The position numbers and the translations under genes are program-made. This document shows, piece by piece, positions 42,304 through 51,295 of a stretch of 64,000 bases of DNA (its first letter is position 1; each line of letters opens with the position of its first letter). Below the pieces are notes generated by a model that did no database searches, had not been told where the DNA came from, and worked only from the letters and a program-made list of their open reading frames with translations. The DNA comes from Corallococcus coralloides DSM 2259 (GTDB lineage: Bacteria; Myxococcota; Myxococcia; Myxococcales; Myxococcaceae): positions 9,956,328 to 10,020,327 of the forward strand of contig NC_017030.1 of the NCBI RefSeq assembly GCF_000255295.1, written 5' to 3'.

Positions 42304-42610
42304 GCAGGTTCTCCACTCGCTCTCCGCGACGTGTCCGGCCGACACGTGGCTGTGGGTCTTCCTGCTCCGCCGAAAAGGCCATGAGGCTCACGGGGGAGGG
42401 AGGAGCAGGACGAGGCGTTGGCACCGTGGAGAAATAACGACTCGAACCCCCCACCCTGATTTCGGGCGCCGCGCATTTCCGTGCCTGCCCGCCTGCTTTC
42501 TCGCGTCCGCTGCCGGACGTGGGCACTGGACCCACGGCACTGGTCCGCCCCGCGGCGCGTCTCCATCTTGAGAACTGGATTGCACGTGCGCGTCCAGGGG
42601 AGGAGCGGCC
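42304..42610. promoter_or_regulatory. Divergent control region before formate dehydrogenase
   Basis: About 307 bases between the lone receiver gene and fdnG. It must hold the fdnG promoter. No clear sigma-70 or sigma-54 pair was found; TTGGCACCGTGGAG at 42418 resembles only half of a -24/-12 element. A tRNA T-loop-like string near 42439 does not fold (see rejected items). AGGGG about ten bases before 42611 is a plausible ribosome-binding site. Confidence 0.35.
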
Positions 42611-45600
42611 TTGAAGTTCCGCGACCTGATGAAGGGTTGGCCCGTGCTGCGGCAGTTCGCGCGGGGAGACAGCCGGGCCCTGGGCGATACGGCGATGTCG
42701 GCGCGAAGCCGCTCGCTGGCGCCGCGCACGAAGACCGCTGATGCGGTCGTGAAGTCCATCTGTCCGTACTGCGCGGTGGGCTGCGGGCAGGAGGTGCACG
42801 TGCGTGACGGGCGCATCCTCGACATCGAGGGTGACCCGCATTCCCCCATCTCGCGCGGACGGCTGTGTCCCAAGGGCGCCGCGACCTTCCAGCTGGTCAC
42901 GGGAACGCAACGCGTGCAGCAGGTCCTCTACCGCCGCCCTGGCGGTACGGAGTGGGAGCCCATTCCGCTGGAAGAGGCGATGACCCAGGTGGCCGAGCGC
43001 GTGAAGCGCACGCGCGACGCGACGTTCGAGGTGACGGACGCGCAGGGCCGGTGGGTGAACCGGACGCTGGGGCTGGCGCACCTGGGTGGGGCGACGCTGG
43101 ACAACGAGGAGAACTACCTCCTCAAGAAGCTCTTCAGCGCGCTGGGCGTCGTGCAGGTGGAGAACCAGGCTCGAATATGACACGCGTCCACGGTGCCCGG
43201 TCTGGGCATCACGTTCGGCCGCGGTGGAGCCACGACGTTCCAGCAGGACCTGCAGCACTCGGACTGCATCCTCATCCAGGGGTCCAACATGGCCGAGTGC
43301 CATCCGGTGGGCTTCCAGTGGGTGATGGAGGCGAAGGCCCGGGGCGCGAAGGTCATCCACGTGGACCCGCGCTACACGCGCACCAGCGCGGTGGCGGACG
43401 TGTACGCGCCCATCCGCGTGGGCACGGACATCGCGTTCCTGGGCGGGCTCATCCACTACGTGCTGGAGCACGAGCGGTACTTCCGTGACTACGTGGTGCA
43501 GTACACCAACGCGGCCACGCTCATCCGCGAGGGCTTCCAGGACACGGAGGACCTGGAGGGGCTCTTCAGCGGCTACCAGCCGAAGGACAACCGCTACGAC
43601 ATCCACACCTGGCAGTACCAGGGCGCGGCGGGCGCCATCCCCGCGGCGGGCCACAAGGAGCTGACGGACGAGCCGGGCGCGGGCGGCGGCGGGCACGACC
43701 ACCGCGTGGACGTGCACGACGAGCACCGCGACGAGACGCTCCAGCATCCCCGGTGCGTGTTCCAGCTCTTGAAGCGCCACTTCTCCCGCTACACGCCGAA
43801 GGTGGTGTCGCAGGTGTGCGGCGTGGACGAGGCGCTGTTCCTCCAGGTGGCCCAAACGCTGTGTGACAACTCCAACCCGGAGCGCACCAGCGCGTTCTGC
43901 TACGCGGTGGGGTGGACGCAGCACTCGGTGGGCGTGCAGTACATCCGCACGGCGGCCATCCTCCAGCTCTTGCTGGGCAACATCGGCCGGCCCGGCGGCG
44001 GCATCCTCGCGCTGCGCGGGCACGCGTCCATCCAGGGCTCCACGGACATCCCCACGCTCTACAACCTGCTGCCGGGCTACCTGCCCATGCCGCACGCGCA
44101 TGCCACGACGGAGGGGCTGGAGCACTACATCCGGAACAACAAGTCCGGCAGCGGCTGGTGGTCGGAGTTCCCCAAGTACGCGGTGTCGCTGCTCAAGGCG
44201 TGGTTCGGGGACAAGGCCACGAAGGACAACGACTACCTGTTCCACCACCTGCCCCGGCTGACGGGCAATCACTCGCACATGCAGACGGTGGCGGACATGG
44301 CGGACGGGAAGCTCCAGGGCTACTTCGTCATGGGGGAGAACCCCGCCGTGGGCAGCATGAACGGGGCGCTCCAGCGCAAGGGCCTGCGCCAGCTGGACTG
44401 GCTGGTGGTGCGCGACTTCACGCTCATCGAGACGGCGGAGTTCTGGCGCACGGCGCCGGAGGTCCAGTCCGGGCAGGTGCGGCCAGAGGACATCCAGACC
44501 GAGGTGTTCTTCTTCCCGGCCGCCGCGCACACGGAGAAGGACGGCACGTTCACCAACACGCAGCGGCTGCTGCAATGGCATCACAAGGCGGTGGAGCCGG
44601 CGGGGGACACGCGCAGCGAGCTGCACTTCACCTATCATCTGGGGCGCAAGCTGCGGGAACTCTACGCGGACTCCACGGACCCGAAGGACGCGCCGCTCCT
44701 GGATTTGACGTGGGACTACCCCACGCACGGGCCGTACGCGGAGCCCTCCGCGGAGGCGGTGCTGAAGGAGATCAACGGCTACACGGTGGCGGATGGGAAG
44801 CCGGTGGACGGCTTCACGGCGCTGAAGGACGACGGCTCCACGGTGTGCGGCTGCTGGATCTACTCGGGCTGCTTCAAGGACGGCGTGAACCAGACGGCGC
44901 GGCGCAAGCCGGGGCAGGAGCAGACGTGGGTGGCGCCGGAGTGGGGCTGGGCGTGGCCCGCCAACCGGCGCATCCTCTACAACCGCGCGTCAGCGGACGC
45001 GAACGGCAAGCCCTGGAGCGAGCGCAAGCGCTACGTGTGGTGGGACGCGGGCGAGAAGAAGTGGACCGGCGAGGACGTGCCGGACTTCATCGCGGACCGG
45101 CCGCCGGAGTACCGGCCGCCCGAGGGCGCGACGGGGCTGGCGACCATCGCCGGCAATGATCCGTTCCTCCTGCAGGCGGACGGCAAGGGCTGGCTCTTCG
45201 CGCCCAGCGGGATGATGGACGGGCCGCTGCCCACGCACTACGAGCCCATGGAGTCGGTGGTGCCCAACCCGCTCTACGCGCAGCAGTGCAGCCCCACGCG
45301 CGAGGAGTGGAAGCGCAAGGACAACCCCTATCACCGGGCCTGGGGCGACCCGCGCTATCCGTACCTGGTCACGACCTACCGGCTCACCGAGCACCACACC
45401 GCGGGCGGAATGTCGCGCTGGCTGTCCTGGCTGAGCGAGCTGCAGCCGGAGATGTTCTGCGAGATCTCCCCGGAGCTGGCGCGCGAGAAGGGGCTGAACA
45501 ACGGGGACTGGTGCACCATCGCCACGGCGCGAGGGGATCTGGAGTGCCGGGCGCTCGTCACGGAGCGCATCCGCCCGCTGAAGGTGAAGGGAAGGCGGGT

Positions 45601-45871
45601 GCACCAGATTGGCCTGCCGTACCACTGGGGCGTCACGGGACGCGTGCGCGGCGAGGGGGCCAACGAGCTGACGGCGTTCGTGGCGGATCAGAACGTGGAC
45701 ATCCAGGAGTCGAAGGCGTTCACGGCGGACCTGCGGGTGGGGCGGATGCGCTCGGGGGAGCGGGCCGCGGCGGGAGCGGCGCCGCCCGCGCTGACGGTGC
45801 CGGAGGTGCCGCGCGACGTGACGCCCCACACGGACCACACGGAAGCGCAGGAACCCGAGGGGAAGGGATAG
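42611..45871 (+). CDS. fdnG: Formate dehydrogenase alpha subunit, selenoprotein (recoded TGA)
   Basis: A 1086-residue molybdopterin enzyme that oxidises formate to CO2. The codon at 43178-43180 is TGA in frame; the context NQARI-U-HASTVPGLG matches the selenocysteine of E. coli FdnG (ARI-U-H), so it is read as Sec190. A SECIS hairpin follows. The N-terminus has the [4Fe-4S] motif CPYCAVGCGQ plus the distal cysteine in RLCPKGAA; bis-MGD domains run to about residue 1050. No Tat motif is visible, unlike exported FdnG. An unusual Gly/His-rich insert (GHDHRVDVHDEHRD) lies near residue 363. Without recoding it would look like two truncated genes. Confidence 0.93.
43178..43217 (+). promoter_or_regulatory. 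SECIS element directing selenocysteine insertion
   Basis: After TGA (43178-43180) come 18 bases and then the apical loop GGTCT (43199-43203), closed by TGCCC (43194-43198) and GGGCA (43204-43208). The loop sequence and the 18-base distance from the stop are those of the E. coli fdhF SECIS, which binds SelB. Confidence 0.88.
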
Positions 45872-45875
45872 GCGC

Positions 45876-46676
45876 ATGGGGAGCCGCAAGGGGTTCTTCA
45901 CGGACACGACGCTCTGCATCGGCTGCAAGGCGTGCGAGGTCGCGTGCAAGCAGTGGAACCAGCTTCCGGACGACGGCTTCCACTTCACGGGGATGTCCTA
46001 CGACCAGACGGAACACCTGGGCGCATCGACGTGGCGGCATGTGGCGTTCGTGGAGCGGCCGGTGCCGTTGCAGGGGCAGACGTCGGGCGCGGGGGACTTC
46101 TCGTGGCTGATGATGTCGGACGTGTGCAAGCACTGCCAGCGCGCGGGGTGCCTGGAGGCGTGTCCCACGGGCGCCATCGTGCGCACGGAGTTCGACACGG
46201 TCTATGTGCAGCCGGACGTGTGCAACGGCTGCGGCTACTGCGTGTCGGCGTGTCCGTTCGGAGTGATTGACCGGCGCGAGGACGACGGGCGCGCGTGGAA
46301 GTGCACGCTCTGTTACGACCGAATCGGCGACGACCAGACGCCCGCGTGCGCGAAGGCGTGTCCCACGGCGTCCATCCAGTACGGCGACCTGGATGAGCTG
46401 CACGCGCGAGCGGAGTCGCGGGTGCGCGACCTGCATCAACGGGGCATGACGGACGCGTACCTGTACGGGAAGGACGCGGAGAACCAGCCGGGCACGGGTG
46501 GGCTCAACGCGTTCTTCCTGCTGCTGGACAAGCCGGAGGTCTACAACCTGCCGCCCGACCCGGTGGTGCCGACGAAGAAGGCACTGCGGTCGTGGGCCTC
46601 GGTGGCGATGGGCGCGGTGGGCATGGTGGCGGTGGCGCTGGGCGCGGTGGCGTTCGGCCGGGAGGGGCGCGGATGA
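45876..46676 (+). CDS. fdnH: Formate dehydrogenase iron-sulfur subunit
   Basis: A 266-residue electron-transfer subunit with four [4Fe-4S] motifs: CIGCKACEVAC, CKHCQRAGCLEACP, CNGCGYCVSACP and CTLC...CAKACP. One C-terminal transmembrane helix (SVAMGAVGMVAVALGAVAFG) anchors it, as in E. coli FdnH. It starts five bases after the fdnG stop, and its own stop overlaps the next gene. It passes electrons from FdnG to the membrane subunit. Confidence 0.94.
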   Translation: MGSRKGFFTDTTLCIGCKACEVACKQWNQLPDDGFHFTGMSYDQTEHLGASTWRHVAFVERPVPLQGQTSGAGDFSWLMMSDVCKHCQRAGCLEACPTGAIVRTEFDTVYVQPDVCNGCGYCVSACPFGVIDRREDDGRAWKCTLCYDRIGDDQTPACAKACPTASIQYGDLDELHARAESRVRDLHQRGMTDAYLYGKDAENQPGTGGLNAFFLLLDKPEVYNLPPDPVVPTKKALRSWASVAMGAVGMVAVALGAVAFGREGRG

Positions 46677-47866
46677 GCGACGACACGCTGTTGGATCGGC
46701 TCCAGCGCAAGGCGGACGGGCGGAACATCGACCCGCGCGCGGGCATCCTGGAGGGCGAGGGTTCCCAGCAGAAGGTGAAGGACCCGGAGCCCGCGCGGAG
46801 GGGGATGGACGTGCTGCCCACGGTGCCGTCGCGGTCCGGGCCGGACAGCGCGGAGGCGCCGAGCTACTACGGAATGCCGGTGTTGAAGGAGCCGCTGTGG
46901 ATCTGGACGGTCCCGGCGTACTTCTACGTGGGCGGAGTGGCGGGCGCGGCGAGCGTGCTCGGCGTGACGCTGGAGTATCTGGGGGGACGTCGGCTGGAGC
47001 GGCTGGCGGGGCGCTGTCACGCGCTGGCTACGGCGGGGGACATCGTGAGCGCGGGGCTGTTGATCCACGACCTGGGCCGACCGTCGCGCTTCCTGAACAT
47101 GCTGCGCGTGTTCCGGCCCACGTCCCCCATGAGCGTAGGGTCGTGGGTGCTGGCCGGTTCGGGCGCGGTGAATACGGCGGCGTTCGTGCTGCGACGGATG
47201 CCCGGGATGCTGGGCGGAGTGGGACGCGCGGCGGGCGTGATGGGCGCGGTGTTGGGGTTGCCGCTCGCGGGCTACACGGCGGTGCTGGTGAGCAACACGG
47301 CGGTGCCCCTGTGGCAGCAAGTGGGGCGCACGCTGCCGCTGTTCTTCATGAGCTCCGCGACGGCGAGCGCGGGGAGCCTGTTGTCGCTGTTCCCGCACAC
47401 GGACGCGGAGGAGCGAGTGCTGCGCCGCTTCCGCATCGCGGGAAAGGTGGCGGAGCTGTTCACGCGCGAGGCGGTGGAGCTGGAAGCGCGGCAGGTGGTG
47501 GAGGTGGGCAAGCCGCTGCGCACGGGAGCGTCAGGAGCGCTGTGGATGCTGTCCCGGACGTGCTCCATGGCCGGACTGGTGATGGACGTGCTGCCGGGAC
47601 GAGCGAGGTGGAAGCAGGTGACCGCGGATGTGCTGTCCACGGTGGGAGCAGTGGCCGCGCGATATGCCGTCATCCAGGCGGGCAAGACCTCCGCGAGGAA
47701 TCCGCAGGCCACGTTCCAGGGACAGCGCCAGGGACTGGGTGCCGCACAGGTGGAAGGGAACACGGAGGCATCGGACGGAAAGCCCCTGAGCTTCCCGTTG
47801 CCCGTGCTGGGCCAGGGCTCGGCACCACGGGCGGGCCTGCCCTACGCGCGGTTCATGGCAACGTGA
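46673..47866 (+). CDS. NrfD-type membrane subunit of formate dehydrogenase
   Basis: A 397-residue polytopic protein of the NrfD/PsrC family with about eight helices. Typical regions are WIWTVPAYFYVGGVAGAASV, DIVSAGLLIHDLGRPSRFLNM and PMSVGSWVLAGSGAVN. It holds no haem ligands of the FdnI cytochrome b type; so quinone reduction here uses an NrfD-like subunit. An 80-residue hydrophilic N-terminus precedes the helices. The ATG overlaps the fdnH stop (ATGA). Its last 14 bases overlap the end of mobA, which is convergent. Confidence 0.9.
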   Translation: MSDDTLLDRLQRKADGRNIDPRAGILEGEGSQQKVKDPEPARRGMDVLPTVPSRSGPDSAEAPSYYGMPVLKEPLWIWTVPAYFYVGGVAGAASVLGVTLEYLGGRRLERLAGRCHALATAGDIVSAGLLIHDLGRPSRFLNMLRVFRPTSPMSVGSWVLAGSGAVNTAAFVLRRMPGMLGGVGRAAGVMGAVLGLPLAGYTAVLVSNTAVPLWQQVGRTLPLFFMSSATASAGSLLSLFPHTDAEERVLRRFRIAGKVAELFTREAVELEARQVVEVGKPLRTGASGALWMLSRTCSMAGLVMDVLPGRARWKQVTADVLSTVGAVAARYAVIQAGKTSARNPQATFQGQRQGLGAAQVEGNTEASDGKPLSFPLPVLGQGSAPRAGLPYARFMAT

Positions 47867-48614: not shown

Positions 48615-49868
48615 ATGCCGCTGACTCCCCTCCCCGCCGCGCGACTGGCCGCGCTCGATGCCATCGTGCCCGCGGCTCCCGCTCGACTTCCCTTGATGGA
48701 AGCCCATGGCCGGTTCCTCGCCGCTGGCATCGTCGCGTCACGCGCGCTGCCTGGCTGCGACAACTCCGCCATGGACGGGTGGGCCGTGCGCGCCGAGGAG
48801 ACCCGGGGCGCCAACCGCGACCGCCCCGCGCGCCTGCGCATCGTCGACACCGTCTACGCCGGCCACCTCCCGCGCCGCGCCCTCCAGCCCGGCGAGGCCG
48901 CGCGCGTCTTCACCGGCGCCCCCCTCTCCCCCGGCGCCGACGCCGTCGTCCGCCAGGAGGCCGCGCGCCCCACTGACGACGGCACCCACGTGGACCTCTT
49001 CGTCTCCGTCGACCCCGGCCATGACCTGCGCCGCGCTGGCGAAGAGGTGATGCCCGGCACGCCGCTGTTCCCCGCAGGCCAGCGCGTGGACGCCACCGTG
49101 CTCGGCGTGCTCGCGTCGCTGGGCGAAGCCACCGCGCTCGTGCGCCCCGCGCCGCGCGTCGCGGTCATCGCCACCGGGGATGAGCTCGTTCCCCCTGGCC
49201 AGCCCGCGGCCCCCCACCAGGTCTTCGAGAGCAACCGCCTCCTCGTGGCCGCCCTGGCCCGCGAGGCCGGCGCGGACATCACCCAGCTGGCCCGCTCGCG
49301 CGACGACGAGGCGGAGCTGCACGCGCGGCTGGAGCAGCTGGCGCCCCAGGTCGACGTGCTCATCACCACCGGCGGCGCGTCCGTGGGCGACAAGGACTGC
49401 GTGAAGCGCGTCCTCACCCGCATGGGCGCGCGCTTCCTCGTGGACGGCGTCGCGCTCAAGCCCGGCAAGCCCGTGGCCGTGGCCCGCCTGGGCTCCACCG
49501 CCGTCGTCGTGCTGCCCGGCAACCCCGGCGCCGCCACCGTCGCCTTCGACCAGTTCGCGCGGCCCCTCCTCTTCAAGCACCAGGGCGTCATCGAACAGCG
49601 CCGCGTCACCCGCGCCCGCCTCTCCGAACCCCGCCACAAGCAGGCCGGCCTCACCTACCTGGTCACCGTCGCGGCGCTCGAGACGCGCGAGGACGGCGCC
49701 GAACCGTGGGCCCGCCTGCGTCCCCAGGGCGCCGGACAGATTCTCCAGAACGTGGCGGCCCGGGGCTGGGCCGTGCTCCCCGCCGGCCGCGCCGACTTCG
49801 CCCAGGGCGACTCCGTGGACGTGCAGCACTTCGACTCGCCGGACTTCCACGCCGTGGAGGCCGCGTGA
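48615..49868 (+). CDS. moeA: Molybdopterin molybdenumtransferase MoeA
   Basis: Inserts molybdate into adenylated molybdopterin. The 417-residue protein shows the expected domains: SAMDGWAVRAEETRG, the linker GDDGTHVDLF, VIATGDELVPPG, the active-site loop TTGGASVGDKDCVK, LPGNPGAATVAFDQF and a C-terminal beta domain. It starts MPLTPLPAARL and overlaps the next gene (GTGA). It is divergent from mobA across about 155 bases, so the cofactor genes likely share regulation with the formate dehydrogenase. Confidence 0.95.
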   Translation: MPLTPLPAARLAALDAIVPAAPARLPLMEAHGRFLAAGIVASRALPGCDNSAMDGWAVRAEETRGANRDRPARLRIVDTVYAGHLPRRALQPGEAARVFTGAPLSPGADAVVRQEAARPTDDGTHVDLFVSVDPGHDLRRAGEEVMPGTPLFPAGQRVDATVLGVLASLGEATALVRPAPRVAVIATGDELVPPGQPAAPHQVFESNRLLVAALAREAGADITQLARSRDDEAELHARLEQLAPQVDVLITTGGASVGDKDCVKRVLTRMGARFLVDGVALKPGKPVAVARLGSTAVVVLPGNPGAATVAFDQFARPLLFKHQGVIEQRRVTRARLSEPRHKQAGLTYLVTVAALETREDGAEPWARLRPQGAGQILQNVAARGWAVLPAGRADFAQGDSVDVQHFDSPDFHAVEAA

Positions 49869-51295
49869 AGCGGGCTCCCGCGCTCGCCCTCATCGGCCAC
49901 TCCGGCGCCGGCAAGACGACGCTCCTGGAGCGCCTGCTGCCGGAGCTGGCCTCTCGCGGACTGCGCGTCGCGTACGTGAAGCACTCCTCGGATGCGCACC
50001 CGATCCACCGCCCGGGCAGCGACACCGCGCGCCTGGACGCCGCGGGCGCGGTCCTCACCGGCTTCGCCACGCCGGACGGCACGCAGCTCACCACCCGGCA
50101 GCCCCTGTCCCCGGCGCTCCTCGCGCGCGACCCGGACCGCGTGGACCTGGTGCTCGTGGAGGGCTGGAAGGACGGCCCCCTCCCGAAGCTGGAGGTGTGG
50201 CGCGAGGGCCTGGAAGCCCCGCTCGCGTCCTCGCGCCCCGACGTGCTCGCCCTGGTGACGGACGCTCCCGTGCTTCCGTTCACTTCAGACCTGCGTCCGC
50301 GCGTGCCGGCCACCGTCTGTGCGGTCGCGGACTTCCTCACCACGTGGCTGCGTGATCAATCCGCGCCGCCGAAGGTCTTCCGCCCGGAACCGCGCGGCGT
50401 CACCCACCGCGCCGTGCGCCGCTTCGACGGAGACACACTCCGTGCGGCCGAGGATGACCGCGTGGCCGTGGAGGAGCCCCTGGAGATCCGCGTGAATGGC
50501 GACCCCGTCGCCACCACCATGCGGACCCCCGGCCATGATCGCGAGCTCGCGGTGGGCTTCCTCTTCGCCGAGGGCATCCTTAACGATGGGGACGACCTGG
50601 GCAGCCTCTTCCACTGCGGCCACCCCGGCGAGGAGGGGTACGGCAACGTGCTGGAGGTCGTCCCCGCCGCCGGTGCCGTGCTCGACCTGGAGCGCGTGGA
50701 GGCCACCCGCCGCGGCACCCTCACCACCTCCGCCTGCGGCGTGTGCGGCCGCCGCGACGTGGACGACCTGATGGCCACCTGCGAAAGCGTCGCTCCGGGC
50801 CCCGTCCTCTCCGCCCGCACCGTGGCCCTCGCCACCGAACGCCTGCGCGTCATCCAGCACACGTTCGAGCTCACCGGGGGCGTGCACGCCGCCGCCGCGC
50901 TGGACGCCCACGGCGAGCTGCTCGCCGCCCACGAGGACGTGGGCCGCCACAACGCCGTGGACAAGGTGGTGGGTGCGCTGGTCCTGGCCGGCGCGGTGCG
51001 CTCCCCGCGCCGGTTGCCCACACCGCCCTTCCCCGCCGCACCCACGGTCCTGGCGGTCAGCGGTCGCGCCAGCTTCGAAATCGTCCAGAAGGCCGCCCGC
51101 GCCCGCATCCCCGTCGTGGTCAGCGTGTCCGCCGCCAGCTCCCTGGCCATCGACCTGGCCCTGCGTGCTGGCGTGACGCTCGCCGCGTTCTCAAGGAACG
51201 GCCGCTGCAACGTCTACACCGCGACAGACCGCCTGGAGCCGCAACCCCAACCCTCGGGATTTCCTCATGACTTCCGCCATGACCCAGCCCGGTGA
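49865..51295 (+). CDS. MobB-FdhD fusion protein
   Basis: A 476-residue fusion of two cofactor proteins. Residues 1 to about 165 are MobB, the GTP-binding partner of MobA, with Walker A GHSGAGKTTLLERLL and VLVEGWKDGPLPKLEV. Residues about 185-465 are FdhD, the sulfurtransferase that moves sulfur from IscS to the Mo/bis-MGD centre of formate dehydrogenase; the sulfur-carrying pair is TSACGVCGR (C291, C294) and AHEDVGRHNAVDKVVG is the other signature. The GTG start overlaps the moeA stop (GTGA). In most bacteria these are separate genes; the fusion links cofactor guanylation to formate dehydrogenase activation. Confidence 0.93.
   Translation: MKRAPALALIGHSGAGKTTLLERLLPELASRGLRVAYVKHSSDAHPIHRPGSDTARLDAAGAVLTGFATPDGTQLTTRQPLSPALLARDPDRVDLVLVEGWKDGPLPKLEVWREGLEAPLASSRPDVLALVTDAPVLPFTSDLRPRVPATVCAVADFLTTWLRDQSAPPKVFRPEPRGVTHRAVRRFDGDTLRAAEDDRVAVEEPLEIRVNGDPVATTMRTPGHDRELAVGFLFAEGILNDGDDLGSLFHCGHPGEEGYGNVLEVVPAAGAVLDLERVEATRRGTLTTSACGVCGRRDVDDLMATCESVAPGPVLSARTVALATERLRVIQHTFELTGGVHAAAALDAHGELLAAHEDVGRHNAVDKVVGALVLAGAVRSPRRLPTPPFPAAPTVLAVSGRASFEIVQKAARARIPVVVSVSAASSLAIDLALRAGVTLAAFSRNGRCNVYTATDRLEPQPQPSGFPHDFRHDPAR

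Follow-up and report, generated by a model that had tools for sequence, protein, structure and literature searches.

An in-frame TGA in a formate dehydrogenase gene of Corallococcus coralloides: a predicted selenocysteine codon, its hairpin and its genomic setting

The formate dehydrogenase (FDH) gene of Corallococcus coralloides DSM 2259 raises the question of whether the TGA inside it marks a broken gene or is a codon that is read as selenocysteine (Sec). The gene lies in a window of 64,000 nucleotides, which is the whole stretch of DNA analysed here and to which all positions refer unless stated otherwise. Its frame is open from a TTG at 42611 to a TAG at 45869-45871 apart from one TGA at 43178-43180, whose context is NQARI-U-HASTVPGLG. 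A plain table-11 list of open reading frames (ORFs) cuts the gene in two, at 42611-43180 and 43193-45871. The sequence-only reading of this stretch had proposed a selenocysteine FDH hidden as a split gene, with a hairpin of the Escherichia coli type just after the TGA. The observation of a TGA at codon 190 and of a hairpin behind it is confirmed, and the selenocysteine interpretation is supported by the comparisons described below.

The interrupted formate dehydrogenase gene

The coding bias of the FDH frame continues across the TGA. The third-position GC is 0.884 upstream and 0.962 downstream, and such high values on both sides are seen in this frame only, whereas the other frames range from 0.47 to 0.70.

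The conceptual protein was compared with profiles and solved structures. NCBIfam NF041513 matches residues 7-1053 with 1859.9 bits (cut-off 1400) in one stretch across the Sec position, and TIGR01553 scores 1036.5 bits (cut-off 814.2). The N-terminal Fe4S4 domain (PF04879, 69.8 bits) and the dinucleotide-binding domain (PF01568, 52.1 bits) both exceed their cut-offs. The best matches in the PDB are 1h0h and entries named as 'selenocysteine-containing' FDH (6sdr, 8cm4). The non-standard residue X of 1h0h chain A, which we take to be Sec, aligns with residue 190, so that the Sec-His pair at 190-191, the metal-binding position, falls on the X-H of that chain. The profiles, the domains and the Sec-His pair agree with a Sec-containing FDH alpha subunit of the FDH-N-alpha type. 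Inspection of its N-terminus by eye (LKFRDLMKGWPVLRQFARGD) showed no twin-arginine signal. Among the best 80 of at least 590 homologous loci, the nearest named relatives belong to Corallococcus sp. AS-1-6 (95%) and C. carmarthensis (93%).

Table 1. Features of the FDH locus, with positions in the window
Feature	Position	Strand	Basis
FDH alpha gene, 1086 residues, predicted Sec at 190 (TGA), TTG start	42611..45871	+	NF041513, TIGR01553
GGAGGAG, likely ribosome binding site, 5 nt 5' of the TTG start	42599..42605	+	sequence; inferred role
AUA, rare codon immediately 5' of the UGA (codon 189)	43175..43177	+	A/U-ending in homologues
UGA, predicted to be read as selenocysteine (codon 190)	43178..43180	+	homologue codons; aligns with X of 1h0h chain A
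SECIS hairpin, stem 43193-43198 with 43204-43209, loop GGUCU 43199-43203	43193..43209	+	comparison, covariation, E. coli register
FDH beta subunit (ferredoxin-like Fe-S protein); by eye, the C-terminus has a hydrophobic stretch	45876..46676	+	TIGR01582 191.1 bits, below cut-off 334.7
NrfD-type membrane (gamma) subunit, start chosen by alignment to relatives	46673..47866	+	PF03916 44.9 bits (cut-off 25.8)
moeA-like molybdopterin molybdotransferase	48615..49868	+	profile matches
MobB-FdhD fusion (cofactor adaptor and FDH sulfurtransferase), start by eye	49865..51295	+	PF03205 119 bits, PF02634 212 bits, one frame

Genes for a beta and a gamma subunit and for cofactor handling follow on the same strand (Table 1). 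A beta homologue was found by tblastn (E 1e-8) at 61 of the 80 named loci and a gamma homologue at 57. Some of the loci without them are short contigs, and one full-length locus (L071) is without both. MobB and FdhD are fused in one frame 3' of moeA. On the minus strand, a DUF2378 domain (PF09536, 183 bits) extends from 41174 to about 41720 and forms the C-terminal end of an ORF of 1184 amino acids. This ORF overlaps part of the FDH gene in antisense and looks like a gene in its DUF2378 part only.

The hairpin and its conservation

The hairpin TGCCC-GGTCT-GGGCA is present as described by the sequence-only reading. Its 6-bp stem begins 12 nt after the TGA and its loop 18 nt after it. The spacing of 18 bases given there is correct when measured to the loop, but not when measured to the stem. 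In E. coli MG1655 fdhF, GGTCT starts exactly 18 nt after the TGA, which is the same register, and fdnG and fdoG have AGTCT at that place. The available part of PMC13188914 describes the bacterial SECIS as a hairpin just after the UGA, with an upper stem of 4-16 bp, an apical loop of 3-9 nt and a G within the first two loop positions. The Corallococcus element, with a 6-bp stem and the loop GGUCU 18 nt 3' of the UGA, agrees with this description.

As a single sequence, the element is not distinctive. Folding of the region, which had been suggested as a check, gave an ordinary stability, with z-scores of -0.26 and -0.53 that are no better than those of shuffled sequences. Rfam at its gathering threshold did not match the hairpin. 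The pattern CGGTCTG occurs 13-20 nt after a TGA at 114 places in the genome (100 of which were listed), compared with 76 for the reversed control. Because the single-sequence fold is weak and the motif with this spacing is common in the genome, the case for the hairpin rests on comparison. A covariance model built from these FDH genes gave E 4.8e-16 at this site, a score that arises by construction since the FDH sequence was in the model. Among the 150 of 12,171 candidates that were scored in the genome, it was the sole site below E 0.01 and nothing else was significant; the next match (L132), at E 0.48, lies about 10 kb from selB.

The comparison covered 110 homologous loci, of which 30 came from one search and 80 were the best-scoring among at least 590 loci of another. 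The codon at the Sec site is TGA in 98 of them, TAG in three and a Cys codon in nine (eight TGC, one TGT). According to the record titles, the TGA loci span myxobacteria, Geobacter relatives, actinomycetes and Terriglobia. The three TAG loci belong to two Blastococcus and one Geodermatophilus, and the accessible text of PMC5330540 reports, for the Geodermatophilaceae, TAG at the Sec site together with a tRNA-Sec with the anticodon CUA. These loci are therefore an independent sign that the FDH position is Sec. One locus titled Comamonas sp. KCTC 72670 (L057) carries a Myxococcus-like FDH (74% identity) with the same site segment as L044, and is probably a mislabelled assembly.

Removal of identical 213-nt segments left 101 sequences, of which 92 are Sec forms (TGA or TAG) and nine are Cys forms. 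All five core pairs of the stem occur in 91 of the 92 distinct Sec forms, as compared with none of the nine Cys forms. The search for Cys homologues, likewise proposed beforehand, thus yielded nine loci of 110 and no complete core stem among them. The altered stem of one TGA locus (L089; CCGAGTCTCGG) keeps four of the five core pairs. The predicted probability of the upper hairpin in the Sec loci averages 0.82, and the lowest locus has 0.002.

Covariation is seen in the Val3-Gly3 pair, formed by the third bases of a Val and a Gly codon, which is GC in 30 of the 92 Sec forms, CG in 30, TA in 21, TG in 10 and GG in one. Both bases change together (G-C/C-G/U-A), and the changes are silent in the protein. 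The two positions pair in 91 of 92 forms, compared with a mean of 44 after shuffling, and none of 20,000 shuffles reached this number. In a 51-sequence alignment, the covariation score was 0.301 against a shuffled mean of 0.128, which none of 500 shuffles reached, and the covariation was lost when the pairing partner was slid by 1-3 columns. These shuffles ignore the relatedness of the sequences; the pair types differ among myxobacteria, Geobacter relatives and actinomycetes, and therefore more than one change is involved. One of the single-sequence folds also had a lower stem, in which CGAAU on the 5' side of the UGA pairs with GUUCG on its 3' side. It was rejected as a conserved element, as the 51 sequences contained no compensatory change and scored no better than shuffles. 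This stem may still form in myxobacteria.

The conservation of silent sites, when normalised by residue, peaks at the same place. In 38 close homologues, the seven 8-codon windows that start at codons 190-196 rank 1-7 of 524, and across all 101 Sec loci, with near-duplicates kept in, four SECIS windows rank 1, 3, 5 and 6 of 350. Without residue normalisation, the SECIS is not lowest: windows at codons 164 and 639-640 are lower in the 38 close homologues, and several other windows are lower across all 101 Sec loci.

These comparisons bear on the other possible explanations. It might be supposed that a point mutation broke the FDH gene, which would make it a pseudogene with a true stop, and the lack of a significant single-sequence fold would suit this view. 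However, a TGA shared by loci of such different groups, the strong coding bias on both sides of it and the silent covariation of the hairpin speak strongly against it, and a pseudogene is regarded as highly improbable. Near-cognate suppression might also insert a different residue at the TGA, for instance Trp or Cys, with the hairpin doing no more than stimulate the readthrough. Hairpins are known to stimulate readthrough of stops, but the position here is the Sec/Cys site of solved FDHs, Cys codons are the only sense codons found at it, and the loop motif and its spacing equal those of the E. coli SECIS in a genome with a full Sec set; the chance that this explanation is right appears very slight. 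The idea of a split enzyme of two separately translated proteins (189 and about 892 residues), which the plain ORF list brings to mind, can hardly be sustained, as the second ORF would start inside the SECIS hairpin and be without the active-site residue, and the alignment is unbroken across the site at the nine Cys loci.

Selenocysteine machinery, a second candidate and the codon before the UGA

The sequence-only reading implied a complete SelA/B/C/D system and proposed a search of the genome for it. In the single contig of 10.08 Mb (completeness 100), all four components were found above their cut-offs: selA (569 bits, cut-off 268), selB (329 bits over the whole profile, cut-off 242), selD (388 bits, cut-off 125) and a tRNA-Sec with the anticodon UCA (70.5 bits). 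With this set, SelA and SelD would charge tRNA-Sec(UCA), and SelB would bind the GGUCU loop 18 nt past the UGA and deliver Sec-tRNA there. The ribosome would then read through the UGA and produce a single protein of 1086 residues. The preferred reading, to which we assign a probability of about 0.97, is that the locus encodes a membrane-linked molybdopterin-dependent FDH whose alpha subunit is predicted to carry Sec at the metal-binding active-site position. It is in keeping with the in-frame UGA, the conserved covarying hairpin and the full sel set, with the lack of a complete hairpin in the Cys forms, and with the neighbouring genes for the beta and gamma subunits and for cofactor handling. 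Sec insertion, SelB binding, enzyme activity and a cytoplasm-facing, quinone-linked role are what we infer from these features for the product.

The machinery is more widespread in the genus than this FDH. tRNA-Sec and selA are present in 16 of 16 genus genomes, while the Sec-FDH was found in nine. Some of the seven absences (G079, G081-G085, G089) may be assembly gaps, because six of these genomes are fragmented drafts of at least 800 contigs; the best case is G083, with 70 contigs and 99% completeness. One genome of 960 contigs (G077) carries the FDH. In the 2006 survey, as far as the available text of PMC1794560 goes, FdhA or SelD was a selenoprotein in every selenoprotein-containing organism. 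The SelD of C. coralloides is the Cys form (HCAGCAAK), for which reason the FDH-less members may be exceptions to this rule, SelD having been read in this genome alone. That the Sec machinery persists in genomes in which no copy of this FDH was found may be of interest to specialists.

Since tRNA-Sec and selA occur in all genus genomes, the FDH in nine of 16, and no other TIGR01591 match in these genomes, at E 1e-15 or better, carries an internal TGA, a second selenoprotein would be expected. A candidate is a UshA-like protein with a PCGU motif, encoded at C1:2835228-2836346 of the genome (L282:5228-6346) with a TGA at 2835360 and a signal-peptide-like start by eye. It was picked by eye from about 100 rows of a loose coding-bias scan, which covered 492,285 bases with overlaps counted (at most about 5% of the genome), and was checked afterwards. 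The GGUCU starts 18 nt after the UGA, the same register as in the FDH gene, and the codon before the UGA is GGT. The 8-bp hairpin CGUCUGGC-GGUCUG-GCCAGACG has a z-score of -1.82, and 8 of 200 shuffles were as good. The protein matches the NCBIfam UshA-like (seleno)protein profile NF041198 with E 4.6e-52 and 177 bits, below the curated cut-off of 275, and Pfam gave no match at E 0.1. The available parts of PMC13188914 and PMC2398784 give a CxU motif for the family. Further searches concerned individual families, and the two genes are not put forward as the full selenoproteome. Among 16 AhpC/TSA family matches in the genome, none has a stop inside the matched part, and of the TIGR01591 matches in the 16 genus genomes (E 1e-15 or better), this FDH is the only one with an internal TGA. 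A GrdB search gave no match, but its control likewise gave none, so that the result carries no weight. Another site (L234) was rejected as a selenoprotein, its TGA being out of frame inside an ORF of 204 residues that resembles a sigma factor by eye.

The codon immediately before the UGA also shows a strong bias. In the 101 Sec loci, which are related, are drawn in part from the best 80 of at least 590 and contain cases of a single gene entered under two ids, codon 189 is ATA in 58, ATT in 28, GTT in 12 and ATC in three, so that it ends in A or T in 98; on distinct segments, the number is 89 of 92. Across the whole Sec FDH genes, A/T-ending codons make up 7.6%; ATA accounts for 1.7% of the codons for Ile and GTT for 2.7% of those for Val. 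The nine Cys forms have GTC (six) or GTG (three) before the Cys site, and none ends in A or U. When the last base of codon 189 was changed to C in silico, the mean predicted probability of the UGA being unpaired was 0.59 instead of 0.72 for the shortest stretch (lower in 51 and higher in three of 89). Two longer stretches gave the same direction, and no consistent effect on the hairpin was seen. The preference is not a general rule, because the codon before the UGA is GTC in each of the three E. coli genes fdhF, fdnG and fdoG. A shallow check of the literature, including the available part of PMC4513850, found no description of it.

The rare codon may contribute to the recoding signal as an additional element that has received little notice. 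As a tentative proposal, rated somewhat below even odds, in these GC-rich bacteria the codon 5' of the Sec UGA would be held A/U-ending (usually AUA or AUU), against a strong bias to GC-ending codons, as part of the recoding signal. Such a codon would leave the UGA accessible in the decoding site or destabilise the P-site helix, and so favour Sec insertion over termination. The same proposal holds that the UshA-like selenoprotein, and not FDH or SelD, may be what maintains the Sec machinery of Corallococcus. The codon preference may interest specialists, its function being a suggestion from the comparisons. The existence of a single gene in UGA-Sec, UAG-Sec and Cys versions additionally provides a clean natural experiment on what a Sec codon needs besides the SECIS.

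Comparison with known systems

With the present locus, a genus of predatory soil bacteria is seen to have both a complete Sec-decoding system and a Sec-FDH. Its alpha subunit is similar to E. coli FdnG and FdoG in exceeding the TIGR01553 cut-off, in its NQAR-V/I-U-H site and in the SECIS loop at the +19 register. The E. coli proteins start with MDVSRRQFFK or MQVSRRQFFK, which contain the twin-arginine motif SRRQFFK, whereas the Corallococcus protein is without it. The neighbouring gamma gene is of the NrfD type (PF03916), unlike that of the canonical FdnGHI, in which FdnI is a cytochrome b. The identification as FdnG in the sequence-only reading is therefore correct as to an FDH-N-alpha-like protein with the NQARI-U-H site, but not as to FdnG itself. 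Judged from the encoded proteins, the locus is not a canonical periplasmic FdnGHI.

The FDHs of 1h0h, 6sdr and 8cm4, presumably from Desulfovibrio, are the best structural matches, and 1h0h shares the Sec position as described above. Their alpha chains are shorter (977-1013 residues as against 1086), and residues 339-370 of the Corallococcus protein have almost no counterpart in 1h0h. The profile NF041513 (formate_DH_Act) matches across Sec, yet its name suggests actinomycetes; the present protein is myxobacterial, and the actinomycete forms among the 80 top-scoring loci (of at least 590) share about 60-68% identity with it.

None of the titles and abstract beginnings retrieved on myxobacterial selenoproteins treats this gene. 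Sec-FDH in myxobacteria is already known, because Anaeromyxobacter dehalogenans is listed with 11 selenoproteins, three of them FdhA, in the available part of Zhang 2006 (PMC1794560). The earlier statement that selenoproteins in myxobacteria are few is doubtful in view of this listing and of the tRNA-Sec in 87 of 96 genomes of the family Myxococcaceae. Both A. dehalogenans and Corallococcus have a Sec-containing FdhA; the former is anaerobic and has three, as given in the same portion of PMC1794560, whereas one Sec-FDH was found in the Corallococcus genome. The Corallococcus gene is an ordinary Sec-FDH of a well-known kind.
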